From the NCBI GenBank assembly GCA_903906315.1, contig CAIVJW010000076.1, positions 1 to 46,286 of the forward strand: a stretch of 46,286 nucleotides of DNA. Direction: 5' to 3'. The notes below the pieces were generated by a model. That model worked only from the letters and a program-made list of their open reading frames with translations, was not told the origin of the DNA and did not search any database. A program made the translations under genes and the position numbers. The DNA comes from an uncultured delta proteobacterium. Its GTDB lineage: Bacteria > Myxococcota_A > Polyangia > Polyangiales > Polyangiaceae. This document shows, piece after piece, positions 682 through 33,557 of the stretch; the first letter of the stretch is position 1, and each line of letters starts with the position of its first letter.

Positions 682-1257
682 TCAGGAGATCGGCCGCAGG
701 TAGTCGAACTTCGGCTGCGCGAGGTCCTCCTGCGTCAGCGCGAAGCGCCCGTCGTAGGGGATCACGTAGGCGACGTCCGACCGGACGCCGGCGAAGTCGA
801 TCGTCGGCACCGCGCTGATCAGGCGCGCGAACGTCCCGCGCTGCCAGAGCGCGGGCTGCGGCACGTCGCAGACCTGAGCCATCATGCGGTCGGTCGACGT
901 GCCGCGCGCGAGCAGGAACGCCATCGTGAACGTCATGTAGAACGGCCCCGGGGAGCTGCGGTACGGGTCGCCGTTCGACGGGGAGGTGCGCGCGCCTTCC
1001 TCGGTGACCATGCCCGTGACCCACATGTCGTAGTCACGGCGCGCGCGCGCGTCGTCGTCGAAGTAGTCCCAGCAGCCCCTCTCCGCGTACGGCAGCGCGG
1101 GCACGATCAGGTCGCACGCGGCGCGGTAGAGCGCCCACTTCTGCTGGCGCGTGGCGCGCGGCGGGTGCGTGCGGACCAGCTCGCCGAGCCGCGTGGCGAG
1201 ATCGGGGCCGTGCGCGAGCCGGATGCAGACCTCGAGCGCGAAGATCGAGTGGAGCAC
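682..1257 (-). CDS. Hypothetical protein, third gene of the 2OG-oxygenase operon
   Basis: I do not recognise this family. It is a soluble-looking 191-residue protein with no signal peptide or membrane segment, and aromatic-rich patches (CWDYFDDDARARRDYDMW in the middle, PKFDYLRPIS at the end). The start is GTG at 1257, three bases after the stop of the upstream gene, so the two are almost certainly co-transcribed and probably translationally coupled. GC-rich third positions run the full length, which supports a real gene. Its place directly after the membrane-anchored unknown suggests that the two products act together, but this is inference from position only. Confidence 0.7.
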   Translation of the reverse strand: MLHSIFALEVCIRLAHGPDLATRLGELVRTHPPRATRQQKWALYRAACDLIVPALPYAERGCWDYFDDDARARRDYDMWVTGMVTEEGARTSPSNGDPYRSSPGPFYMTFTMAFLLARGTSTDRMMAQVCDVPQPALWQRGTFARLISAVPTIDFAGVRSDVAYVIPYDGRFALTQEDLAQPKFDYLRPIS

Positions 1258-1260
1258 CGA

Positions 1261-2634
1261 TCAGCCCCCGGACGACCCGCCCGACGACCGGTTCCACGAG
1301 CCGCTGCGGCTGATCTTGGCGCCGAGGATGGCGCCGGTGGCGACCGCGACCACGACGCCTATCTGGCCGAAGCCCGGCGGTCGCGCGGCCCCCGAGAACG
1401 CGGTCGCGCGGCGGCGCGGCACGTACGAGTAGCCGGCCGACACCGCGAGCGGGGCGTCCTGCACGGGCGCGATCGTCGGGCCCCAGCCGTACGCCCTCCA
1501 GAACGAGTAGTGCCGGGCCGCGGCGCCGCCGTAAAACGACATCGGGCCCTCGGGCTCCGACGCCGGCGGAGGCGTCGACCCGGGCCGCGTGGGCGAGGCC
1601 GGCAAGGTCGCGCCGGTCGGGTCCGGGGCGAAGTCCGACAGCGCGGCCATCTTCACCTCGAGGCCCGCGCTCGCCCAGCCGACGAACGCCTCGTTCAGGT
1701 CGTCGAGCTCGGTCGTGTCGGCGGGCGTCGGCGCGACGTAGAGCACGCGCTTGACACCGTGCGGGGCGAGCTTCGCCGCGGGCGGGAGCTTCGCGACGTG
1801 GCGGTTGTCGAACTGCGTGGAGTCGTCGGTGTACGAGGCGAGCCGCGCCCGATCGAGGACGAACGCGAGCGGCGCGCCCTGGCCTCGCTCGGTCGCGCGG
1901 CGGCGGAAGAGCGGCTGGTAGTACGCGGCCGCCGCGAGCGTGCGGTGCGCGGGCACGACGCCGCGCGGGTGGGGCCAGTTGTCGAAGCCGAAGCACGGGT
2001 CGAAGCGCCGCGCGAGGCCGGCTGCGAACGCGACGGCGACGGGGCCCGGCAGGTCGACGACCACGGCGATCGCGGGCGAGGAGACGCCGGCGAGGAGCGC
2101 GGCCACGCCGCGGCCGGCCTGGTAGGCCGCGTCCATCTCGGGCGTCGAGATCGGCCGCAGCGCCGACCGGAGCGATTGCACCGCCGCCGCGTCGCCCTCG
2201 GGGACCTTGCGCGGCGTGGCGGGGGGCGCCTCGAAGAGCGTCGTGGTCGCGAACGGCCGGTGCGCGGCCTCCGAGGGCGCGAGATCCTGCACCATGCGGT
2301 CGAGGTCGGTCACGTCGAACGGCTTCCTCGACTCGCCGTCGAAGGTGAGCGCCTCGGTCGCCGCGCCGAAGCTCCAGCCGTACTCGCGCTGCATCTCGAG
2401 CGCGTCGCGCGTCAGGTTCGTCGTCGCGACCCCGTCGTCGCCCGCCGCCGCCGCCGCGACCACGCCGGTCAGCGCGATCGCCGCGCCGACCCCGAGCAGG
2501 GCGAAGATGGCCTGGCGCCGGGCGATCGGGTCGACCGCGCTCATGCTCTCCTGCCACCACTTCGCGCCCACGATGGACGGCTTGTCCACCACCTCGGTGC
2601 GCTCGAACGTCGGCTGCTTCGGGTCGTCGCTCAT
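1261..2634 (-). CDS. Membrane-anchored protein of unknown function
   Basis: The protein is 457 residues. The ATG at 2634 overlaps the stop of the oxygenase-like gene by four bases (ATGA). The open frame extends further upstream, but that part lies over the neighbouring gene in another frame. A short polar N-terminus is followed by one hydrophobic segment (about residues 37-60), then a long extracytoplasmic-type region with a PHPRGVVPAH motif. Near the C-terminus is a second hydrophobic stretch (GVVVAVATGAILGA), followed by a Ser/Gly tail (SGGSSGG). No catalytic motif is evident. DUF350/GspS-like neighbourhoods elsewhere often include membrane or secreted proteins of unknown function with low-complexity ends, so a partner role in that system is plausible but unproven. 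Confidence 0.8.
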   Translation of the reverse strand: MSDDPKQPTFERTEVVDKPSIVGAKWWQESMSAVDPIARRQAIFALLGVGAAIALTGVVAAAAAGDDGVATTNLTRDALEMQREYGWSFGAATEALTFDGESRKPFDVTDLDRMVQDLAPSEAAHRPFATTTLFEAPPATPRKVPEGDAAAVQSLRSALRPISTPEMDAAYQAGRGVAALLAGVSSPAIAVVVDLPGPVAVAFAAGLARRFDPCFGFDNWPHPRGVVPAHRTLAAAAYYQPLFRRRATERGQGAPLAFVLDRARLASYTDDSTQFDNRHVAKLPPAAKLAPHGVKRVLYVAPTPADTTELDDLNEAFVGWASAGLEVKMAALSDFAPDPTGATLPASPTRPGSTPPPASEPEGPMSFYGGAAARHYSFWRAYGWGPTIAPVQDAPLAVSAGYSYVPRRRATAFSGAARPPGFGQIGVVVAVATGAILGAKISRSGSWNRSSGGSSGG

Positions 2635-3449
2635 GCTCTCCTGCTGGCCGCGGCATGGTCGCGCAACTCCGCGAGGAAGTCTGCCCGGAACACGCCGTCG
2701 ACCCGGATCGAATAGCGGAAGAACGGGTCGGCTTCGACGCCGTGGTAGTCCGCGTCGTTGAACCACACGGCGCGCCCGTCGACGGGCGTGCGCTCGCGGC
2801 GGTCGTCGTCCCACAGAAACAGGCGCTTGCCGGTGACGGGCGCGATCGTGATGAAGTGCGGGGGCACCGGCTGGTCCTCGGGCTCGGCGTCCTTGTGCAC
2901 CGTGCCGGCGTCGTTCGCGCGCAGGCCCATGACGTTCGCGCGGCCGATGCCGACGAACGGCAGCGACTCGAGGAACGCGACCGTCTTCGGGAAGAACGTG
3001 CGCGCCTCCCGGGTGAAGGCCTTGCCCTCGAGGTCGCTCTTCTCGGTCCAGAAGCGGTTCGGGACCAGCTCGTAGTAGACCTTCCACGGGAAGTAGACGC
3101 GGTGGCGGTACTCGAGCCACAGCATCTGGCGGCGCGAGAGCGGCACCTCGCGCTCCTCGCCGACGTCGCGATCGCCCGGGTCGACCGCGCCGGGGTCGTC
3201 GCCGAGCGAGTGAAAGACGGCGAGCTCGCCGGGCGACAGCGCGCCGAGGACCTCGCCGTAATCGCCCCACGCCTCGCGGGCGAACATCTCCGGGACGATG
3301 CCCATCGATCGGTGGCTGCCGCCCGTGTAGCCGGGGGCGACGCGGGTGAGCCCGAGGCAGACCTCCTCGTGGACGGCGGCGAGCGCGCCGAGGTCGAGCA
3401 GGTCGTCGAGCCGGAGATACGGGTGACCCCAGATGCCGACGAGCGCCAT
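2631..3449 (-). CDS. Putative 2-oxoglutarate/Fe(II)-dependent oxygenase (paralogue A)
   Basis: This 272-residue protein is clearly paralogous to 31549-32373. Shared blocks include GIWG at the start, YTGGS, RRQMLWL, VYFPWKV and a C-terminal block WFNDxDYHGVE. It shows H185-x-D187, H236 and R245-Y-S247. In the 2OG oxygenase fold, HxD plus a distal His bind Fe(II), and an RxS nine or ten residues later binds the 2OG carboxylate. Isopenicillin N synthase has H214, D216, H270, R279 and S281, with the same nine-residue H-to-R spacing. All these residues are also present in the second copy. The substrate is unknown. It is first in a three-gene minus-strand operon and divergent from a DUF350/ATP-grasp pair. 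The oxygenase call is inference from motifs. Confidence 0.7.
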   Translation of the reverse strand: MALVGIWGHPYLRLDDLLDLGALAAVHEEVCLGLTRVAPGYTGGSHRSMGIVPEMFAREAWGDYGEVLGALSPGELAVFHSLGDDPGAVDPGDRDVGEEREVPLSRRQMLWLEYRHRVYFPWKVYYELVPNRFWTEKSDLEGKAFTREARTFFPKTVAFLESLPFVGIGRANVMGLRANDAGTVHKDAEPEDQPVPPHFITIAPVTGKRLFLWDDDRRERTPVDGRAVWFNDADYHGVEADPFFRYSIRVDGVFRADFLAELRDHAAASRRA

Positions 3450-3556
3450 AGGCCTCGAGGAGTACTCCGTCGGCGGCGAGCCGGGAACCCGGGACGTGGT
3501 GCGGCGCCCCGCTCGCGGCTTGTCCGTCGCCGCCCGACGCCGTACCGTGGCCCGAA

Positions 3557-4417
3557 ATGGACCTATCGCCGGCCTATACGCTCGGTTTCGGCGCCGCGAC
3601 GACCTGTGGGCTGCTCGGCCTGCTCGTCGCCGGGCAGCGCGTGCTGTCGCCGGGCAGGACCGTCGCCGCCGACAACAAGCGCGAGAACCTCGGGCGCGCG
3701 CTCCTGCACGTGGGGCAGGTGCTCGGCGTCTTCTTCGTCGCGACGGCCGTGACGGCGAGCTCGGTCAAGGGCGCGAGCCCCGCGAGCGACGCGCTGTGGG
3801 TCGCGGTGTACGGGGTGGCGGGGCTCCTGGTCGTGGCCGTCTCGGGCCACCTCGGCACGAAGGTGCTGCTCGAGTCGGCGCTCGCCCCGGAGATCGACCG
3901 CGGCAACGCGGCGGCCGGGCTCGCCGCCGGCGCGCACTACGCGGCGACTGGCCTGCTCACGGCGAAGGCCCTGGCCGGCAGCACCGACCTGCGCGGGCTC
4001 GGCCTGTCGCTCGTGTTCTACCTGATCGCGCAGGCCACGATGCACCTCCTGGTCATCGGCTTCCGCGCCCTCACCTCGTACGACGACGCCGCGCAGATCC
4101 GGTCGGAGAACCTCGCCGCCGCGGTGAGCTACGCCGGCATCACGATCGGCGTCGGCATCCTCGTCGGCCACGCGGTCGACGGCGATTTCGAGGGCTGGAC
4201 GGTCTCGCTCTTCGCCTACGGCAAGGCGCTGCTCGGCGGCCTCGCGTTCTGGCCGGTCCGGCAGATCCTGGTGCAGGGCCTGCTGCTCGGCCTCGGCTTC
4301 CGCCCGATCCGCGGCGGGCTCGACACCGCGATCGGCGAGCGCCGCAACGTCGGCGCCGCAGCCCTCGAGGCCGTCTGCTACGTGGCCACCGCGCTCGCCG
4401 TCGTGCGCCTCGCGTGA
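3557..4417 (+). CDS. DUF350 family integral membrane protein
   Basis: This 286-residue, very hydrophobic protein has about eight predicted membrane helices. They fall into repeated two-helix units typical of DUF350 (E. coli YjfL family), with Gly-rich helices and short polar loops such as DNKRENLGRALLHVG and QIRSENLAAAVSYAG. These two loops resemble each other and mark the internal duplication. Proteins of this family recur beside glutathionylspermidine-synthase-like ATP-grasp enzymes. Here the next gene is exactly that, with a GTG start inside this gene's stop (GTGA). The molecular function is unknown; a membrane partner or anchor for the ligase product is a common guess. No clear Shine-Dalgarno sequence precedes the ATG. 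Confidence 0.88.
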   Translation: MDLSPAYTLGFGAATTCGLLGLLVAGQRVLSPGRTVAADNKRENLGRALLHVGQVLGVFFVATAVTASSVKGASPASDALWVAVYGVAGLLVVAVSGHLGTKVLLESALAPEIDRGNAAAGLAAGAHYAATGLLTAKALAGSTDLRGLGLSLVFYLIAQATMHLLVIGFRALTSYDDAAQIRSENLAAAVSYAGITIGVGILVGHAVDGDFEGWTVSLFAYGKALLGGLAFWPVRQILVQGLLLGLGFRPIRGGLDTAIGERRNVGAAALEAVCYVATALAVVRLA

Positions 4418-5667
4418 GATCGCCCGACGGATCCGCCTACGACGCCTTCGCCGCGAGGGTGGTCGAGTCCGGCATCGTGACCGACCCGTGGCTCGACGGC
4501 GCCCCGCGGCTGCGCGCCGATCCCGTCGTCGTGACGCGCGCCCTCGGGCGCAGCCTGTACCGCACGGCCGAGCGCGTCGCCGAGGTCTACGACGAGGCGT
4601 GCCGCATCGTGGCCGCCTCGCCGGATCTCTGCGACTCGTTCTTCGCGATCTCGCCCTACCAGAAGGCCATGTGGCTCGCGTCCGAGCCGCTGTGGCACGG
4701 GATCGCGCGCGCCGACGTCTTCGTGACCGACGAGGGGCTCGCCATCACCGAGCTCAACTGCGACACGCCGACCGGCGAGGCCGAGGCCGTGGTGCTGAAC
4801 GCGATCGCGGCCGAGGGGCGCGACGACGTCGTCGACCCGACCGCGGGGCTCGAGGCCCGCTTCGTCGCGATGGTCGACGCGGTCGCGACGCGCACCCTCG
4901 GCCCCGGCGCGCCGCGCGTGGCCGGCCTGGTCTACCCGACCGAGCTGACCGAGGACCTCGCGCTCGTCCGCCTGTATCGCCGCTGGCTCGAGGCGGCCGG
5001 CTGGGAGGTCGTGCTCGGATCGCCCTACAACCTGAGCTCCGGCCCCGGCGGCTCGGCCCTGCTCTTCGACACGCCCATTTCCGTGATGGTGCGCCACTAC
5101 AAGACCGACTGGTGGGGCGAGCGCGTGTCGGTCTGGACCGACGAGGCCATCCCCGATCCGCAGCCGCTCGCCGGCGAGCTGACGACCGTGCTCTCCGCGA
5201 TGATGGAGAGGCGCCTCGCGGTGGTGAACCCGATCGGGGCCGTCCTGCCGCAGAACAAGCGGATGATGGCCTTCATGTGGGAGCACCTCCACCGCTTCTC
5301 GCCCGGATCGCAGGAGACGATCCGGCGACACGTGCCCATCACGTCGAGGCTCGAGGTGCTGCACGTCGAGCAGCTCCTCGCCGAGAAGGACGAGTGGGTG
5401 CTCAAGTCCGATTACGGCGCGGAGGGCGACGAGGTCGTGATCGGCCGCCTCACCGGCGCCGAGGACTGGCGGCGATCGATCGGGCTGGCGCGCGAGGGCC
5501 GCTGGATCGCGCAGCGCTACTTCGCGGCGGAGCAGACCGCCGAGGGGCACACCGTCAACTACGGCGTCTACCTCGTCGGCGGCGAGGCGGCCGGGATCTA
5601 CGCGCGCGTCCAGCTCGGGCCCACCGACGACCGCGCCATCAGCGCGCCGATGCTCGTCGCCCGCTGA
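4414..5667 (+). CDS. Glutathionylspermidine-synthase-like ATP-grasp ligase
   Basis: This 417-residue protein starts at GTG 4414, overlapping the DUF350 stop. The family motif SPYQKAMWLASEPLW leads to ITELNCDTPTGEAEA, the conserved acidic/Asn patch of the GspS synthetase pre-ATP-grasp region. The C-terminal half has the ATP-grasp lysine and flexible loop (LKSDYGAEGDEVVIG), a second strand lysine-equivalent region (RWIAQRYF) and a metal-site end (GIYARVQLG). It lacks the N-terminal amidase of E. coli Gss, so it is ligase-only, like YjfC/YgiC. Members probably form an amide between a peptide or glutamate carboxylate and an amine, but the true substrates of the stand-alone group are not established. 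It is coupled to DUF350. Confidence 0.85.
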   Translation: MRSPDGSAYDAFAARVVESGIVTDPWLDGAPRLRADPVVVTRALGRSLYRTAERVAEVYDEACRIVAASPDLCDSFFAISPYQKAMWLASEPLWHGIARADVFVTDEGLAITELNCDTPTGEAEAVVLNAIAAEGRDDVVDPTAGLEARFVAMVDAVATRTLGPGAPRVAGLVYPTELTEDLALVRLYRRWLEAAGWEVVLGSPYNLSSGPGGSALLFDTPISVMVRHYKTDWWGERVSVWTDEAIPDPQPLAGELTTVLSAMMERRLAVVNPIGAVLPQNKRMMAFMWEHLHRFSPGSQETIRRHVPITSRLEVLHVEQLLAEKDEWVLKSDYGAEGDEVVIGRLTGAEDWRRSIGLAREGRWIAQRYFAAEQTAEGHTVNYGVYLVGGEAAGIYARVQLGPTDDRAISAPMLVAR

Positions 5668-5797: not shown

Positions 5798-7021
5798 TCA
5801 TGCCTGGACGGGATCGCCCAGGTTCGCCTGCGCCCCGCCGGCCCTGGCCAGCGAGCAGCGGAGCCGCAGCTCCCCGGGACCCGGCGCGTCGATCGCGACC
5901 CGCCCGCCCATCGCCTCGATGTTGCGCGCGGCGAGCGGGATGGCGAGGCCCATGTCCTCGACGAACGTGGCCGTCCGCTCGCTGGAGAACGTCGCGAAGA
6001 AGCTCGCGTGCGCCGCTTCCGGCAGCGTCACCTCCGAGGACTCGATGCTCACGGTGAACCAGGGGCCCTCGTTGCCACCGGTCACCGTCACGCTCGCGCC
6101 GGGCCTCTTGAGCCGGACCATCGCTCGCACCAGCGTCCGCAACGCGAGCGAGGTCAGCACCTCGTCGCCGATGACCCGAGGCGGTCGCCCCGAGGCGCTC
6201 GGCGGGCCCTCATCGCCAACGATCACCCCGGGGAAGGCGGCCGCGACGAGGCGGATGAGACTCCCCATCTCGAAGGATTGAACGTCCAGCGACGCGTCGC
6301 CGGTCTGGAGGTCGGCCAGCCGCATGGCCCCGTCGAGCGTCTCCTGGAGCCGTACGCGACTTCGCTCGAAGAGCCCGCTCAGCTTCTCGCGCATCGCCGG
6401 ATTGCCGACCTCGTCGATGGCCAGCTGACCGACGCCGAGGACGCCATTGGCGGGGGTGCGCAGCTCGTGCGACACCGCGCGCAGGTAGTCGCTCTTCGTC
6501 CGATCGCGCCACAGCAGCCGCTGATGCGCCTCCGCGAGCGCGCGCGTCCGGGCGCGCACGACCTCCTCGAGGTGCTCGTTGTGCTGCCGGAGCTCGCGCT
6601 GGGCGGATTGAAGCGTCATGTGGGTGCGCACCCGCTGGGCGACGAGCTGCGGATTGAAGGGCTTGGTCACGTAGTCGACCGCCCCGAGCGCGAGCCCGCG
6701 AAACTCGTCGCCGTCGTCGCACAGCGCCGAGACGAAGATCACGGGGATGTGCCGAGTGGCCGGGTTCGCCTTCAGGCGTCGGCACGTCTCATAGCCATCC
6801 ATCTCGGGCATCAGGATGTCGAGCAGGATCACGTCGGGAGGACTGCCATCCTCGATGAGCGCCAGCGCGTCGGCGCCGGACATCGCCACTTGAACCCGGT
6901 ATTCTCGACTCAGGATCTTCCCGAGGATCTCGACGTTCTCCGAGACGTCGTCCACCACGAGGACCGTGCCTCGCCCACCCAGCGGTTCCGCGGATACGTC
7001 GGTAACCCGGTGCATGATCAT
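5798..7021 (-). CDS. Receiver-histidine kinase with degenerate ATP domain
   Basis: The protein is 407 residues from ATG 7021 (ATG 7015 is also possible). A receiver domain spans about residues 18-135 with phospho-acceptor D68 (VILLDILMPEMDG) and K120. A coiled-coil linker follows, then a HisKA dimerisation helix with H185 in SHELRTP. The C-terminal region lies where the HATPase should be, but the N-box is unrecognisable (LALRTLVRAMVRLKRPG), no DxGxG box is visible, and the G2 loop is reduced to EDMGLAIPLAARN. ATP binding is therefore doubtful. It may be a phosphatase, a scaffold, or a receiver whose His is phosphorylated by a partner. It is divergent from the large hybrid kinase at 7435, a likely partner by position. 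Confidence 0.85.
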   Translation of the reverse strand: MIMHRVTDVSAEPLGGRGTVLVVDDVSENVEILGKILSREYRVQVAMSGADALALIEDGSPPDVILLDILMPEMDGYETCRRLKANPATRHIPVIFVSALCDDGDEFRGLALGAVDYVTKPFNPQLVAQRVRTHMTLQSAQRELRQHNEHLEEVVRARTRALAEAHQRLLWRDRTKSDYLRAVSHELRTPANGVLGVGQLAIDEVGNPAMREKLSGLFERSRVRLQETLDGAMRLADLQTGDASLDVQSFEMGSLIRLVAAAFPGVIVGDEGPPSASGRPPRVIGDEVLTSLALRTLVRAMVRLKRPGASVTVTGGNEGPWFTVSIESSEVTLPEAAHASFFATFSSERTATFVEDMGLAIPLAARNIEAMGGRVAIDAPGPGELRLRCSLARAGGAQANLGDPVQA

Positions 7022-28317: not shown

Positions 28318-31300
28318 TCAGCGGGCCGGGCCTCGCAGCTGCGCGCGCAGCGCCGCGCCGAACGGGGCAGTCTCGCCGGCCTCGAAGGTCGCGACGTCCT
28401 CGACGGCGCGCGCCAGCAGCGGGCTGTCGGCGGCGTCGTAGCAGCGAGCCCGCTGCGCGAGGAAGTCGCCGTGCCACAGGACGTGGGGCTCGAAGGCCGC
28501 GAACGCCTCGACGCACACGCCGCCGCGCGCGTCGATGAAGCGGGCGAGCTCGAGCCGGGTCTGCTGGCGCACGAGGCGCAACACCTCGGCGGCGAACGGC
28601 GTCGCGAGCCTTTCGAAGATCCGCCGCCCGGCCGCGCGATCCGTCGCGGCGAGGCGCGGCGCGAGGGCGAGCGTGCGCACCATGGTGTGCTGTACGGCCC
28701 ACGGGGATCGCTGGTAGCCCGCGATCGTGGCCTCCAGCGCGACCGTGGCTTCGGCCGTGCGCCCCTGGGCGAAGCGGAGCCGGGCTACCAGCGCGTCGGC
28801 GTCGGTCGGCTCGAAGGCGCGCACCCGGTCGATCAGCGCCTGCGCCGCCTCGTCGCCTCGATCGGCGAGCGCCTCGGCGAGCGCGGTGGTCTCGATGGCC
28901 GTCCGCGGATCCCCCGGCTGCGACCGGAATTTGCGCAGCGACCCCTCGAGATCCCCCGTCACCCACGCCCCGAGGGCCTGCACGCGCGCGAGCGAGTCGG
29001 GCGCGCGTGTGGCCTCGTCGAGCGTGCGGTCGGGCGGCGCGCCGTACAGCGTCGGCAGCTCGGCGCGCCAGTCGTCGATGAGCCCCTGGTCGACCTGCCC
29101 GTTCACGAGGTCGGGTCGGCCCTCGCCGCGGGCGGCGGCGAGCCGCGCGAGGTCGCGCACGTCGAAGAGCGCGCGCCCGACGGACCGCGCGAGCGCGAAC
29201 TCGAGCAGGTTGCGGTCGTCCAGGTTGCGCCCCTCCGGGCCGACGGTGGCGGCCACGGCGCGCGCGAGCGACGCGCGGCCGAGGTGGTGGGCGAGGAAGC
29301 CCTCGAGGCCGTCCACGCGCCACGCGGCGAGCATCGCCGACCGGTAGGGCTCCTCCTTGGCGCGCGCGCGCAGCGCCGCCACGTCGTGCACCAGCGGATC
29401 GGCTGCGGCGACGAGGAGCAGGTCGCGCGACTTCGCGCGCCAGGTCTCGACGTGGGGGAAGACGGAGGCGAGCGTCGCGTACACGCTGGCGACGCTGGTC
29501 GCGTCGATCTCGTAGGCCTGGAGCCACTGCACGAAGACGCCGCCGGGGCCGAGGCGCTGGCGGACGGCGTCGTAGAACTCGGCGGTGAAGAGGCTCGAAA
29601 TGCCTGCGCGGTAGGGGTTCGACGGCTCCGAGAAGATGACGTCGTAGCGGCGCGGCGTCGTGAGCAGCACCTCGCGCGCGTCGCCGATCGTGAGGTGGAT
29701 CTTGGGGTCGTCGAGGGCTTCGTGGTTGACGGCGTGGCACGCCTTGGCGACGTGGACGATCGCCGGCTCCAGCTCGACGACGTCGACGGACTTCACGCTC
29801 GGCACGGCGGCGAGCCAGCCCGCCGTGCTGCCCGTGCCGAGGCCGATCACGAGGGCGCTCTGCGGGTCGCGGTGGAGCATCGCGCCGACGAGGCCGCCCA
29901 TCACCTGCGTGGGCGCGTCCCCCCAGGCGGACCCGTCGCTCTTGCCGTTGACGACGAAGTTGAAGCTGTTGCTCGCCTCGAGGGCCAGCCCGGCCTCGAC
30001 GCCGTCCGCCTCCCACACGACGTCCCGCCGCTGGTCGCGCAGCCACCCCTCGATCTCGATGGGCGTGGCGGCCGCGAACCACGCGTCGACGCGACCGGCG
30101 CCGATCGGGCTGTGGCGCCAGACCGCCGTCGGCCCCTCGGTCGCCGCGAGCGCGAGGGCCACGACGCACGCGATCGCGGGCGCGACGAGCGATCCGCGCG
30201 CGGCCCCGCGGCGGTCGACGAAGAGCGCCCCGGCGGCGATCACGACGAGCGCGACCACCGAGAGGCGCCACGCGCCCTGCGCCGTGAGCAGCGGCAGGAG
30301 CAGGAAGCCGCCCGCCAGCGAGCCGGCGATGGCCCCGGCGGTGTTCCACGCGTACGCGAGCCCGACGTGGCGCGCGACGTCGGTGCGACCGCGCCCGAGC
30401 AGCGCGACGAGCAGCGGGAACTGCACCCCCGAGAGGAACGCGGCGGGGAGCACGGCGATCGCGGCGATGACGGACCAGCCCGCCACGTAGCCGGCGAAGC
30501 CGAAGATGCGCAGGCTCCGCAGGGCGATCGCGACGAGCGCGAGCCGGTCGCCGAGGGCGAACGGCAGCGCGAGAAGCAGGGCCTCGAGGGCGCAGGTGAG
30601 CGCGAGCCCGCGCGCCGTCGCGGGGCGATCGGCGCCGAGGAGGGCGTAGGCCGCGCCGCCGAGCCCGATGCCGAGCAGCGCGATCGCGAGGATCAGGCCG
30701 AACGTGTACGAGGATCCGCCGAGGAGCGGCGCGAGCATCCGGTACCAGACGAGCTCCATGAGCAGGAACACGAAGCCGACGAGCGCGGAGGCCGCGTACG
30801 CGAGCCTCGCCGGGGTCGCCGGCCGGTCGGGCGGCGCGGTCGCGTGGGCGGCCGGCACGACGGGGGCGGATCCCACGCCCCTCCGCACGAGCCACGCGGC
30901 CAGCAGGGCCACGCCCGCGTTGAACGCGCAGGCGACCCACAGCGTGCGGCGCGTGCCGATCGTCTCGAGGAGCCAGAAGCTCGCGACCGTGGCGCCGACG
31001 ACCGCGCCGAGCGTGTTCGCGCCGTAGAGCAGCGCGCGCCGCCGCCTGCGCACGTCGTCGCCGGTCTCGACCGCGCGCGCGGCCGCCGGGAGCGTGCCTC
31101 CCATGAGAAACGTCGGCACGCCGAGCACGACGACCGAGATCAGCAGCCGCGCGACCGTGCCCAGCGCGGGCCCGAGGACGGTCGTTCCGCCGAGCGCCGC
31201 GTACGCGCGCCGCGCGATCAGCACGGCGAGCGGCGTGGCCGCGGCCGAGATCGCGACGAGGATCTCGAGGCGCGCGTAGAGGGCGAGCGGTCGAGGTGAA

Positions 31301-31491
31301 CGCTCCGCGCGCCGCCCGAGGACGGCGCTGCCGAGGCCGAGCCCGCCCATGAAGATGGCGAGCACCGCGGCCGACGCCGGCGTGGACGCGCCGAAGATGA
31401 GGCGCAGCTCGCGCAGCCAAGCGACCTGGTACGCGAGCGCGCAGGCGCCCGAACCGAAGAGCAAGAGCGCGATGGGCGCGGTGCGGCGCAT
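28318..31491 (-). CDS. Membrane-fused spermidine-synthase-like protein
   Basis: The protein is 1057 residues. The N-terminal half (to about 520) is a polytopic membrane region starting FGSGACALAYQVAWLRELRL, typical of 'fused' spermidine synthases. A SAM-type Rossmann domain has LVIGLGTGSTAGWLA near residue 549, acidic VVELEP, IGDAREVL, then FSEPSNPYRAGISSLFTAEFY. Classical spermidine synthases have Asp in the DSSDP catalytic loop; here the loop reads SEPSNP, so aminopropyl transfer is uncertain. The last 300 or more residues are helical, TPR-like. It is third gene of the Rieske / 2OG-oxygenase operon, 57 bp after its neighbour. It may act on an amine or a membrane substrate. Confidence 0.85.
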   Translation of the reverse strand: MRRTAPIALLLFGSGACALAYQVAWLRELRLIFGASTPASAAVLAIFMGGLGLGSAVLGRRAERSPRPLALYARLEILVAISAAATPLAVLIARRAYAALGGTTVLGPALGTVARLLISVVVLGVPTFLMGGTLPAAARAVETGDDVRRRRRALLYGANTLGAVVGATVASFWLLETIGTRRTLWVACAFNAGVALLAAWLVRRGVGSAPVVPAAHATAPPDRPATPARLAYAASALVGFVFLLMELVWYRMLAPLLGGSSYTFGLILAIALLGIGLGGAAYALLGADRPATARGLALTCALEALLLALPFALGDRLALVAIALRSLRIFGFAGYVAGWSVIAAIAVLPAAFLSGVQFPLLVALLGRGRTDVARHVGLAYAWNTAGAIAGSLAGGFLLLPLLTAQGAWRLSVVALVVIAAGALFVDRRGAARGSLVAPAIACVVALALAATEGPTAVWRHSPIGAGRVDAWFAAATPIEIEGWLRDQRRDVVWEADGVEAGLALEASNSFNFVVNGKSDGSAWGDAPTQVMGGLVGAMLHRDPQSALVIGLGTGSTAGWLAAVPSVKSVDVVELEPAIVHVAKACHAVNHEALDDPKIHLTIGDAREVLLTTPRRYDVIFSEPSNPYRAGISSLFTAEFYDAVRQRLGPGGVFVQWLQAYEIDATSVASVYATLASVFPHVETWRAKSRDLLLVAAADPLVHDVAALRARAKEEPYRSAMLAAWRVDGLEGFLAHHLGRASLARAVAATVGPEGRNLDDRNLLEFALARSVGRALFDVRDLARLAAARGEGRPDLVNGQVDQGLIDDWRAELPTLYGAPPDRTLDEATRAPDSLARVQALGAWVTGDLEGSLRKFRSQPGDPRTAIETTALAEALADRGDEAAQALIDRVRAFEPTDADALVARLRFAQGRTAEATVALEATIAGYQRSPWAVQHTMVRTLALAPRLAATDRAAGRRIFERLATPFAAEVLRLVRQQTRLELARFIDARGGVCVEAFAAFEPHVLWHGDFLAQRARCYDAADSPLLARAVEDVATFEAGETAPFGAALRAQLRGPAR

Positions 31492-31548: not shown

Positions 31549-32373
31549 TCAGCGACGGCGACGCGTCCGCGCCCGCAGCGCGTCGAGCCAGCGCGGATCG
31601 AACACGCCGTCGACGCGGATCGAGTAGCGGAAGAACGGGTCGGGCTCGACGCCGTGGTAGTCCATGTCGTTGAACCAGTAGACCTTCGATCGCACCTCGA
31701 CGCGCTCGCCGCCCTCGGCGTCGCACAGGACGAAGCGCTTGCCGCCGCGTGGGTCGAAGTTGATCGTGTGCGGGATCGTGAGCGTCTTGCCGGGCTCGCT
31801 GTCGCGGTGCACGGGCGCGTGGTCATTGGCCTCGATGCCGAAGAGCACGCAGCGCCCGATCTCGGTGAATGGCAGTCTCTTCACGAACGCGACCGTCCTC
31901 GGCAGGAGCCTCTCGGCGCCCTCGGAGAAGGCCTTTCCGGCGCCAGAGTGCTTGTCTTCCCAGGTGCCGTTCTCGAGGAGGTGGTAGCAGACCTTCCAGG
32001 GGAAGTAGACGCCGTGGCGCATCTTCAGCCACAGCATCTGGCGGCGCGTGAGCGGGTGATCCGTCTCGTCGCCGAAGGTGAAGTCGGCGCGTCGCTCCAC
32101 GTCGAAGACCGACGGGTCGTCCGCGAGCGACACGAGGTCCAGCCACTCCTCGCGCGGGAGGCGCAAGATGACCTCGCCGAGGTCCGCGTAGCCGTCGTCG
32201 TGGACGAAGGGCGCGACGACGCCCATCCACTTCAGGCTGCCGCCCGTGTAGCTCGCCTCGAGATCGGTGAGGGCGAGGCAAATCTCGCGGTCGATCGCCG
32301 GAAGCTCGGACGTGTCGATCACCGGATCGAGGTCGATGAACGGCTCGCCCCAGATGCCGCAGAGCCTGCTCAC
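31549..32373 (-). CDS. Putative 2-oxoglutarate/Fe(II)-dependent oxygenase (paralogue B)
   Basis: This 274-residue protein starts at GTG 32373, overlapping the Rieske gene stop (GTGA). It is a paralogue of 2631-3449 along its whole length, with strong blocks RRQMLWL, VYFPWKV, PRTVAFVKRLPF and WFNDMDYHGVE. The candidate metal and cosubstrate residues are conserved as H189-x-D191, H240 and R249-Y-S251. It lacks one or two short segments and has a basic tail (RARTRRRR). The partner Rieske oxygenase suggests two successive oxidations of one substrate. The substrate itself is unknown. The call is from motifs, not from a recognised named family. Confidence 0.7.
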   Translation of the reverse strand: MSRLCGIWGEPFIDLDPVIDTSELPAIDREICLALTDLEASYTGGSLKWMGVVAPFVHDDGYADLGEVILRLPREEWLDLVSLADDPSVFDVERRADFTFGDETDHPLTRRQMLWLKMRHGVYFPWKVCYHLLENGTWEDKHSGAGKAFSEGAERLLPRTVAFVKRLPFTEIGRCVLFGIEANDHAPVHRDSEPGKTLTIPHTINFDPRGGKRFVLCDAEGGERVEVRSKVYWFNDMDYHGVEPDPFFRYSIRVDGVFDPRWLDALRARTRRRR

Positions 32374-33557
32374 GACGCGCCCTTTCCCGCCCCCTCGGCG
32401 GCCTCGATCAGCGCGCGCGCGACCCGCTGCTCGAAGGCGTGCACGCCGTCCTCGACCGCCGAGTACGCGCGCGGCACGAACGCCCCCGACGCCACCCCGA
32501 GCTGCTGCCGCTCGACGATCGCGCGGTCCTCGGCGTTCGCGCGGTCCCAAAAATCGGCGATCGCCGCAGGGCAAGGCTCGCCCGGGCGGAGCGCGGCGGG
32601 GTGCAGCGCGAGGTCGGCCACGACGCGCGTGCGGGCGACGTCGACGGGGTCGAGGCGGTAGGTGAGCAGGTAGTCGGGCTGCACGCTGATCAGCAGCCCG
32701 GGAAACAGCAGCGCGTCGAAGATCGTGCGCCGGTCCTCGTCGCTCGTGCCCACGAGCCGCGGGCGGCCGTCGAGGCGCGCGGTGGTCGACACGGTCTCGG
32801 CGCCGTCCTCGAGCTCCATCGTGCCGCCGAGCCACGCGCCGTCGCCGAGGCACGAGCTCGCGCGCGAGGTCGGCGTGATCGCCTCGAGCGCGGGGTGCAC
32901 GCCCGGGAAGTGACACGACTCCTGAAAGTTCGCGACGACGAGCTTCCAGTTCGCGGCGACGACGTACTCCACGCGGCGCGCCAGGCGCGTGTGGCGCGGG
33001 CTCGTGCGCACGATCCGCGCGGGCACGCCGGCGATCGCGGCCTCGATCGGCGGGGCGTCCGCCGACAGGCACGCGAACAGCAGGCCGTGCGCGGCCTCGA
33101 CCCGCACGGGGGCGAGCGCGAAGTCGGCGCGGCTCCGGCCCGCGCAGAGCGGCGCCGCGCCCTCGCCGCGCAGCCGCCCCGCGAGGTCGAACTGCCAGCC
33201 GTGGTACGGGCAGCGCAGCGAGGTCGCGCGCCCGGCGTCGCCGACCGCGAGGGGCGCGCCGCGGTGCGGACAGACGTCGTGGAAGGCGCGGATCGCGAGG
33301 TCCTCGCCGCGCACGACGAGGACGCCGGCCTGGGTCAGCGGCGCGCGCAGCCAGGCGCCCGGCGCGATCACGTCGTCCTCGCGCCCGACGCAGCGCCAGG
33401 ACCGATCCCAGATCCGATCGAGCTCGACCGCGAAGACGCCGGGGTCGACATAGGCGCGCGCCGGCAGCGGCGTCGCGCGATCGAGGGGCAGCAGCACCGC
33501 TTCGAGCGCGGCGCGATCGATCGGGGGCGCGGGGCCGGTCACGGCGGCGAGCATCAC
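32370..33557 (-). CDS. Rieske non-haem iron oxygenase, alpha subunit type
   Basis: The protein is 395 residues. The Rieske centre ligands are C96-x-H98 and C116-x2-H119 (DVCPHRGAPLA and RCPYHGWQFD). The catalytic iron site follows NWKLVVANFQESCH: H216, H221 and probably D344 (ANAEDRAIVERQQLG). E213 stands where naphthalene dioxygenase has the bridging Asp. A Glu there is usual in choline/glycine-betaine-type Rieske oxygenases, which act on quaternary amines. It needs a separate reductase, which is not encoded nearby. It is the first gene of the operon with the 2OG-oxygenase-like and spermidine-synthase-like genes. The start may be ATG 33557 or the next codon. Confidence 0.92.
   Translation of the reverse strand: MMLAAVTGPAPPIDRAALEAVLLPLDRATPLPARAYVDPGVFAVELDRIWDRSWRCVGREDDVIAPGAWLRAPLTQAGVLVVRGEDLAIRAFHDVCPHRGAPLAVGDAGRATSLRCPYHGWQFDLAGRLRGEGAAPLCAGRSRADFALAPVRVEAAHGLLFACLSADAPPIEAAIAGVPARIVRTSPRHTRLARRVEYVVAANWKLVVANFQESCHFPGVHPALEAITPTSRASSCLGDGAWLGGTMELEDGAETVSTTARLDGRPRLVGTSDEDRRTIFDALLFPGLLISVQPDYLLTYRLDPVDVARTRVVADLALHPAALRPGEPCPAAIADFWDRANAEDRAIVERQQLGVASGAFVPRAYSAVEDGVHAFEQRVARALIEAAEGAGKGAS

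Follow-up and report, generated by a model that had tools for sequence, protein, structure and literature searches.

A myxobacterial gene system pairing a stand-alone GspS-like ligase with a predicted oxygenase and a glycine-tailed protein, a possible substrate of the ligase

We analysed a stretch of 46,286 nucleotides from an uncultured delta proteobacterium of the family Polyangiaceae (contig CAIVJW010000076.1 of assembly GCA_903906315.1), hereafter called the window, and in particular five genes near its start, A to E, which lie on both sides of a divergent gap (Table 1). Gene E encodes a stand-alone GspS-like ATP-grasp ligase and D a DUF350 protein, and facing them are genes for a 2-oxoglutarate (2OG) oxygenase-like protein (C), a membrane-anchored protein (B) and a protein without a Pfam family (A). 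The five gene families form one system, and B ends in a conserved glycine-rich tail that may be the substrate of the ligase.

All five open reading frames were recovered where an initial annotation of this DNA had placed them, together with the 107-base-pair (bp) gap between C and D, and a codon-usage gene caller trained on the genes of the window, these five included, agreed. The stop of C and the start of B share four bases (ATGA), as do the stop of D and the start of E (GTGA), and each side therefore reads as an operon. The gap had been described as a shared promoter region; as no sigma-70-like promoter was found in positions 3300-3700, that description holds for its geometry only. In Pfam searches D was assigned to DUF350 and E to GSP_synth, and A, B and C stayed below every family cut-off. 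No NCBIfam model exceeded its cut-off among genes A-E, and none of the five proteins matched the PADLOC models of anti-phage defence at E-values up to 0.01.

Table 1. Positions of the genes and features discussed, numbered from the first nucleotide of the window (aa, amino acids).
Feature	Coordinates	Strand	Description
Gene A	682-1257	-	191 aa, GTG start, no Pfam family
Gene B	1261-2634	-	457 aa, membrane-anchored, conserved C-terminal tail
C-terminal tail of B, residues 442-457	1264-1311	-	ends SRSGSWNRSSGGSSGG; proposed substrate of ligase E
Gene C	2631-3449	-	272 aa, 2-oxoglutarate/Fe(II)-oxygenase-like
HxD motif of C (H185-x-D187)	2889-2897	-	H236 and R245 further on
C-D gap between divergent genes	3450-3556	none	107 bp, from coordinates
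Gene D	3557-4417	+	286 aa, two DUF350 units
Gene E	4414-5667	+	stand-alone ATP-grasp ligase (GspS-like) of 417 aa; its GTG start overlaps the D stop
Gene C2	31549-32373	-	second C-family copy, ~47% identical to C, 28 kb off
Rieske/ring-hydroxylating oxygenase alpha-subunit gene	32370-33554	-	4-bp overlap with C2

The ligase E matched PF03738 (GSP_synth) with an E-value of 4.4e-14 and a score of 52.9 bits, compared with a curated cut-off of 29.3. Pfam gave this domain and weak ATP-grasp matches only, so that E is without the amidase half and is not a bifunctional GspSA. When aligned with GspSA, YgiC and YjfC of E. coli, E keeps R316, D318, E330, N332, E392, K498, K533, Q568 and R598 (GspSA numbering), of which we take R316, D318, E330, N332, K498, K533 and R598 to be catalytic in GspSA. 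D matched PF03994 (DUF350) over two stretches (9.9e-26), and none of 17 members of family A gave a Pfam match at E-values up to 0.1.

For C, an AlphaFold2 model built from 39 sequences reached a predicted local distance difference test (pLDDT) score of 95. Its best solved match in Foldseek was the non-haem hydroxylase 7v4f (E-value 2.1e-6), and VIA gave a Z score of 11.8 to 7v4m (2.8 Å over 147 residues) and of about 11 to PHD2. Residues H185, D187, H236, R245 and S247 are invariant, and the arrangement HxD...H...R is present in all 39 sequences; we take HxD...H, with an R nine residues on, to be the metal triad and 2OG-binding Arg of 2OG oxygenases. The model thus supports a double-stranded beta-helix 2OG-oxygenase fold for C, which is a predicted oxygenase. 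C shares the fold and the HxD...H...R arrangement with AspH/PHD-type Fe(II)/2OG hydroxylases; however, its sequences form a family of their own, seen mainly in the order of the window and with no Pfam family over cut-off (a weak Asp_Arg_Hydrox match in two of the 39 members, best E-value 0.013, fell under it). Profile searches of PDB gave best E-values of 0.37 for C, 0.028 for B and 0.16 for A, which we took as chance. The initial identification of a stand-alone GspS-like ligase, a DUF350 protein and a 2OG-oxygenase-like protein was correct, the first two by Pfam and the third by its fold model and invariant motif. Neither the tail of B nor the C2-Rieske pair at 31549-33554 featured in that annotation.

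Protein B consists of an N-terminal RR and hydrophobic anchor (residues ~39-60), an alpha/beta core (~165-335), a variable linker and a conserved tail. Of the 36 B proteins listed, 31 have RR immediately ahead of the hydrophobic segment, and this combination is presumably compatible with a Tat-type signal. No fold was assigned to B, since its scores were weak (best Foldseek E-value 0.027, VIA Z at most 4.0), and no Pfam family was over cut-off in the B family, two weak single-member matches being seen among 17 members. Membership of DUF1190 was likewise rejected, with no match in the B of the window (E-values up to 1) or in 17 members (up to 0.1). The model of B had a pLDDT of 75 overall and of less than 50 at residues 445-457, indicating a disordered tail. 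Despite this disorder the tail is conserved, with the motif RSGSWNRxSGGxxGG: among 17 aligned B proteins G445 and R449 were invariant and R443 was present in 94%, and mean column identity was 0.71 in the tail (442-450) compared with 0.64 in the core and 0.37 in the linker (336-405). When 52 distinct B proteins (identical sequences alone removed) were compared with 535 background proteins, the tail pattern together with a last dozen residues of at least half Gly/Ser was found in 47 of the former and one of the latter, itself a weak B relative; none of 218 other proteins of the system had both features. The last residue was Gly (43) or Ser (9) in all 52 B proteins, relative to 85 of the 535 background proteins.

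Besides B and E, a separate paralogous ligase/partner pair, E2-B2, is found in the genome of the window and in others. In the former it lies at positions 628-2942 of locus L141 (contig C249), with a broken second copy at positions 2-2194 of L140 (contig C354); the E2 row of L140 in the ligase alignment is this broken gene, from which several conserved positions are gone. B2 has a Gly-rich RGGFG tail and, by eye, a lipobox-like start, and is a probable lipoprotein. A neighbour of the pair in L142 and L143 is a gene with a weak match to glycosyl hydrolase family 18.

The initial annotation had held that scattering of homologs of the minus-strand genes would speak against a system; we observed instead that they co-occur almost perfectly with ligase E. 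The order was represented by 144 genomes in our profile searches. A, B, C and E were all present in 33 and all absent in 107, the four partial genomes having A and B (G041, in which a 49-bit E fragment at a contig end was left uncounted), A, B and E (G049), B, C and E (G144) or C (G043). Matches to B and E were restricted by hand to strong ones (at least 178.9 and at least 348.3 bits, respectively), which excludes the E2/B2 paralogues; at E-values up to 0.001, B was found in 45 and E in 50 of the 144 genomes. Gene A and the C family were present in 35 genomes each. Across these genomes A, B, C and E occur together far more often than chance would give, with Fisher p values for the six pairs of 1e-32 to 9e-28, calculated with shared ancestry and linkage ignored.

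The genes are also physically close. Among genomes having both members of a pair, they were within 12 kb on the same contig in 35/35 for B and A, 29/35 for E and B, 28/34 for B and C, and 23/34 for E and C (the C copy nearest B was used, and positions were taken by hand from match lists). Of the 37 genomes carrying any of the four, 20 have all of them on a single contig at most 12 kb from one member, and a further 13 have three so placed. A scan of genome contigs with C returned 12 loci, all named myxobacterial or deltaproteobacterial metagenome-assembled genomes. Co-occurrence of at least four of the five families, which had been proposed as support for a system, was seen in eight of them, seven having all five in their flanks. 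Locus L010 has C, D, E and part of B, where the locus ends; L006, L007 and L009 have C, B and A, and L012 has C alone. B was found without E nearby in 14 of the 58 B matches fetched, 13 of which were itemised. E had been missed by the gene caller in L178, L180, L182 and L183, where a PF03738 match adjoins B; L131 is cut by a contig end, so that E is not nearby; and E is on another contig in L006/L119, L009/L120, L121, L123 and L126 (genomes G088, G096, G157, G049 and G103, respectively). The remaining itemised match is L007.

If the two divergent operons were unrelated neighbours, B and E might be expected to part, and they are indeed on different contigs in six of the 35 genomes with both. 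However, co-occurrence is nearly perfect also where the loci are apart: in G088, G096 and G103 (one genus) and in G157, all four genes are kept although E is on a different contig from the other three. Membership moreover stays while gene order varies, and we consider unrelated neighbours extremely unlikely.

Within the family of the window, C was found in 22 of 60 genomes, in one of them (G033) as fragments only. Positions 8046-8727 of L075, from this genome, hold shortened, broken-looking C- and A-like fragments, and from their sequence the system seems to have decayed there. In a sample of 188 genomes of the phylum, C-family matches were present in six, five of which belong to the window's own family. 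The DUF350 family was present in 70 of the 188, and DUF350 is therefore not specific to the system.

The arrangement of the genes differs among relatives. The divergent order of the window (C / D E) recurs in L051 and L058; E D / C B A is found in L045, L053 and L063; C D E B A on one strand in L049, L062 and L072; and E-B-A with C not nearby in L128 and L135. In L049, L062, L072, L128 and L135, B and A directly follow E on one strand. The initial view of a minus-strand operon facing the ligase pair thus stands insofar as both belong to one system, but not as an independent operon. The more distant loci of the phylum sample have D-E-B without C or A (L175-L177 and L186) or D-E-B-A (L184 and L185). 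As D-E-B is kept without C or A in distant relatives, B looks like part of the core and C like an addition, and on these gene orders we take D-E-B as the probable core, with A forming the next layer and C added later. A fusion of C and B was considered for L007, where a 675-aa C+B reading frame was called; C and B start in different frames there, which indicates a frameshift rather than a fusion.

Further additions in relatives are a Rieske oxygenase with C2 and a 2OG oxygenase-like family, F. The Rieske gene of the window has both Rieske and ring-hydroxylating domains (PF00355, 3.6e-16; PF00848, 1.2e-38). A Rieske gene is found beside a C-family gene in L045-L047, L052, L060, L064, L117, L129, L130 and L146, and Rieske and C2 are fused in single open frames in L066 (671 aa) and L010 (644 aa). 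Family F is a separate protein with a weak 2OG-FeII_Oxy_3 match (E-value 3e-4, under cut-off), and its members (L045 15145-15888, L046 13318-14073, L051 3816-4604 and eight others) often adjoin A or C2; none was found in the window. The support for oxidation by C and its partners, a putative part of the system, consists of gene overlap and co-occurrence. The Asn of the tail (SGSWNR) was considered as a target of C and rejected: as judged by eye, it is not always there where C is, nor always missing where C is not.

A short conserved C-terminal stretch beside a ligase and several oxygenases would also be expected if B were a ribosomal peptide precursor, whose tail E, C and the other oxygenases would modify before it is cut off and released. 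However, B has a conserved core and an anchor, and its tail is one conserved sequence type and not a variable core peptide. The survey of neighbour families beyond A-E found 11 members of F and six of a kinase-like family, f2, and no other family with more than three members; the neighbours were not annotated for peptidases or exporters. A precursor role for B is, in our judgement, quite improbable.

The pairing of ligase and B extends beyond the order. In 13 of 16 fetched loci of the phylum with PF03738, a B gene adjoins the ligase; the thirteenth, L188, came from the B profile search, and the 16 exclude G000, G011, G013 and G054, four of the 20 PF03738-positive genomes. The loci without an adjoining B are L173 (bifunctional), L174 (a broken fragment) and L179 (B on another contig). 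In the order and phylum samples, a stand-alone GspS-like ligase usually has B as its neighbour. In E. coli, YgiB adjoins YgiC and YjfM adjoins YjfC, the RefSeq name of both ligases being peptide-spermidine ligase. YgiB and YjfM are both DUF1190 proteins with a Gly-rich tail of the R-G-G-F-G...G-G type: YgiB has RGGFG...RSMGG, and YjfM ends RGGYGRSSSARGHWGG, its DUF1190 Pfam match reaching residue 211 of 212, tail included.

Searches of plasmid records returned five records with E and 164 with YjfC, and no match with B. We chose 14 of these plasmid loci for taxon spread (two of the five matches listed for E and 12 of the 40 listed for YjfC), and in nine the neighbour had a GFG-containing, Gly/Ser-rich end as judged by eye. 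These nine plasmids come from eight Alphaproteobacteria (Rhizobium, Sulfitobacter, Asticcacaulis, Azospirillum B510, Roseomonas, Methylobacterium, Paracoccus and Indioceanicola) and one actinomycete (Arthrobacter). Six of the nine records are annotated, and in five the tailed protein is annotated as DUF1190. The sixth is the Arthrobacter plasmid NZ_CP104273.1, where a 168-aa tailed protein ending TRGGFGGGAKGGGGHGG (L219, 2763-3269) lies beside a GspS-like ligase; it had no Pfam match, though it is annotated as a tRNA-dihydrouridine synthase, and it is likely a misannotation and a further tail protein. The B profile matched none of ten partners (YgiB and YjfM of E. coli and eight from plasmids, five of these annotated as DUF1190 and two having weak ends) at E-values up to 10, and the same profile does find B2 (5e-29). 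Two bifunctional enzymes, in each of which Pfam finds CHAP and GSP_synth, were examined as well, namely E. coli gss and a 623-aa protein in L173; neither has a tailed neighbour.

The tail could alternatively be a sorting signal of the GlyGly-CTERM or MYXO-CTERM kind, its association with the ligase being secondary, as it lies at the extreme C-terminus and follows a hydrophobic stretch in many B proteins. In B, however, the conserved residues come after this stretch and not before it, several B tails have no such stretch, and none was seen by eye in B2 or the DUF1190 tails. NCBIfam sorting-signal models gave no match to B, and in other phyla, too, such tails are linked to one ligase family. Taken together, this makes a sorting signal very unlikely.

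GspS activates the glycine carboxylate of glutathione and attaches spermidine to it. Because GspS acts on the Gly of glutathione and B has a free C-terminal ...GG, B was taken as the acceptor, and by this analogy E would join an amine, probably a polyamine, to the C-terminal Gly of B, a proposal whose chances of being right or wrong we regard as about evenly balanced. A C-terminal glycine can carry spermidine, as ubiquitin-like proteins have been joined to it in vitro by other enzymes, according to PMC12270671. From the observed gene content, co-occurrence, conserved tail and intact active-site residues of ligase and oxygenase, we infer a scheme of ligation, amine, oxygenase target, step order and envelope role as follows. 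E, as an ATP-grasp peptide-amine ligase, would activate the carboxylate of the last glycine in the B tail and link the activated tail to an amine, for which a polyamine such as spermidine is the most likely candidate. B would be an envelope protein, anchored or exported via its N-terminal RR-hydrophobic segment, with its tail modified before export or on the cytoplasmic side, and D, with its double DUF350, would be its membrane partner. C, joined in a number of relatives by the Rieske-C2 pair and F, may oxidise the tail or the attached amine, and A may be an accessory protein.

The product of E could conceivably also be a small diffusible amide (a conjugate of a peptide with a polyamine, or of an amino acid) on which B, C and A act or which they sense, the tail being a docking or localisation element only. 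The known GspS substrate, glutathione, is itself a small peptide, C and the Rieske enzyme resemble small-molecule oxygenases, and the alpha/beta core of B could bind a ligand. However, similar tails recur on partners with different bodies, and a free glycine-rich carboxyl end fits GspS chemistry; the tailed neighbour is also missing at both bifunctional GspSA loci examined, which docking could explain too. We consider a small diffusible amide somewhat unlikely. The initial annotation had suggested a pathway for an amide-linked metabolite or a peptide, of which the metabolite seems less likely than amidation of B's own tail.

Conjugation of an amine to the tail of B has several points against it. 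The tail pattern was composed after the tails had been seen, the count of end residues being less exposed in this respect; either the pattern or the Gly/Ser requirement excludes five of the 52 B proteins, the clearest case being L137, and the nine B proteins with a final Ser do not end in Gly. From the model, the C-terminal hydrophobic stretch of B (~421-439) may be a membrane segment or a beta-hairpin. R538 of GspSA is replaced by Ala or Cys in type-1 E proteins, so that the peptide recognition of E would differ from that of known enzymes, and judged by its alignment E is expected to be an active ligase in which recognition of the peptide has changed. A single-sequence phmmer search of E against PDB returned one match, with an E-value of 0.043, and no GspS. 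The plasmid tails were scored by eye; two of the 14 loci (Leptolyngbya and Virgibacillus) have a weak Gly/Ser end only, and three (Photobacterium, Sinorhizobium and Azospirillum TSH58) have no tailed neighbour. B2 and most DUF1190 partners have lipobox-like starts by eye and look exported, in which case a cytoplasmic ligase must act before export. Finally, the table of 144 genomes covers A, B, C and E and does not include D.

The E. coli YjfL-YjfM-YjfC and YgiB-YgiC sets resemble the system in that a stand-alone GspS-like ligase lies beside an envelope-type Gly-tailed protein, with DUF350 in the yjf operon. They differ in that the partner is a DUF1190 protein and not B, that no oxygenase or A gene is listed there, that the yjf operon has PspA, DUF2170 and DUF2491 genes, and that YjfL has 132 aa, compared with 286 aa and two DUF350 units in D. 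GspSA belongs to the same ATP-grasp ligase family as E and shares the conserved aligned positions; in contrast to E, it has the amidase half and R538, and neither bifunctional enzyme has a tailed neighbour. The activity of YgiC and YjfC is reportedly in print, in a 2023 paper by Pederick et al. (doi 10.1021/acs.biochem.2c00592), which is cited in PMC12568646, PMC12270671 and PMC10948618. PMC11237479 describes phage-shock-linked operons of two types, in which DUF350 is found either with a spermidine-synthase-like gene or with a GspS-like ATP-grasp protein and DUF1190; its available part does not describe B, A, C, a Rieske partner or a C-terminal tail. As far as these partial sources go, operons of DUF350, GspS-like and DUF1190 genes and the activity of YgiC/YjfC are already known. 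The accessible literature on DUF350, DUF1190, GspS-like and peptide-spermidine ligases, which did not extend to the original YgiC/YjfC paper, contained no description of A, B, C or the tails.

The natural peptide substrate of stand-alone GspS-like ligases, which occur in several phyla and in E. coli, appears to be the question behind the name peptide-spermidine ligase, and a dedicated neighbour with a conserved tag at its C-terminus offers a cheap and concrete test in E. coli K-12 and in myxobacteria. If the proposed conjugation of the B tail is right, it would amount to a C-terminal polyamine modification of bacterial proteins, to which the myxobacterial version adds a layer of oxidation, and it would give a first functional frame for DUF350 and for the unnamed families A, B and C. 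A much wider generalisation, speculative and in our view probably too broad, is a widespread bacterial modification in which dedicated envelope proteins carry a short RGGFG...GG-type tag with its terminal glycine polyamine-capped by a stand-alone GspS-like ligase. In the order of the window as many as four oxygenases, one of the Rieske type and two or three of the 2OG type, would then oxidise the capped tail, and the ribosomally made protein would display at the membrane a C-terminus that is positively charged and heavily decorated.

Two other genes of the window adjoin members of the system. A 1057-aa protein (28318-31491, minus strand) adjoins C2 and has a hydrophobic N-terminal half and a Spermine_synth match at residues 535-682 (6e-17). 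A spermidine-synthase link to the system was considered on this account and rejected: this fused gene had no homolog in the early locus set (many of its loci short) or in 36 other loci of the neighbour-family survey, and it was therefore treated as incidental. Directly after E, on the opposite strand, lies a response regulator and histidine-kinase-like fusion (5798-7021, minus strand), in which HisKA was under the Pfam cut-off and Response_reg matched with an E-value of 1.2e-25.

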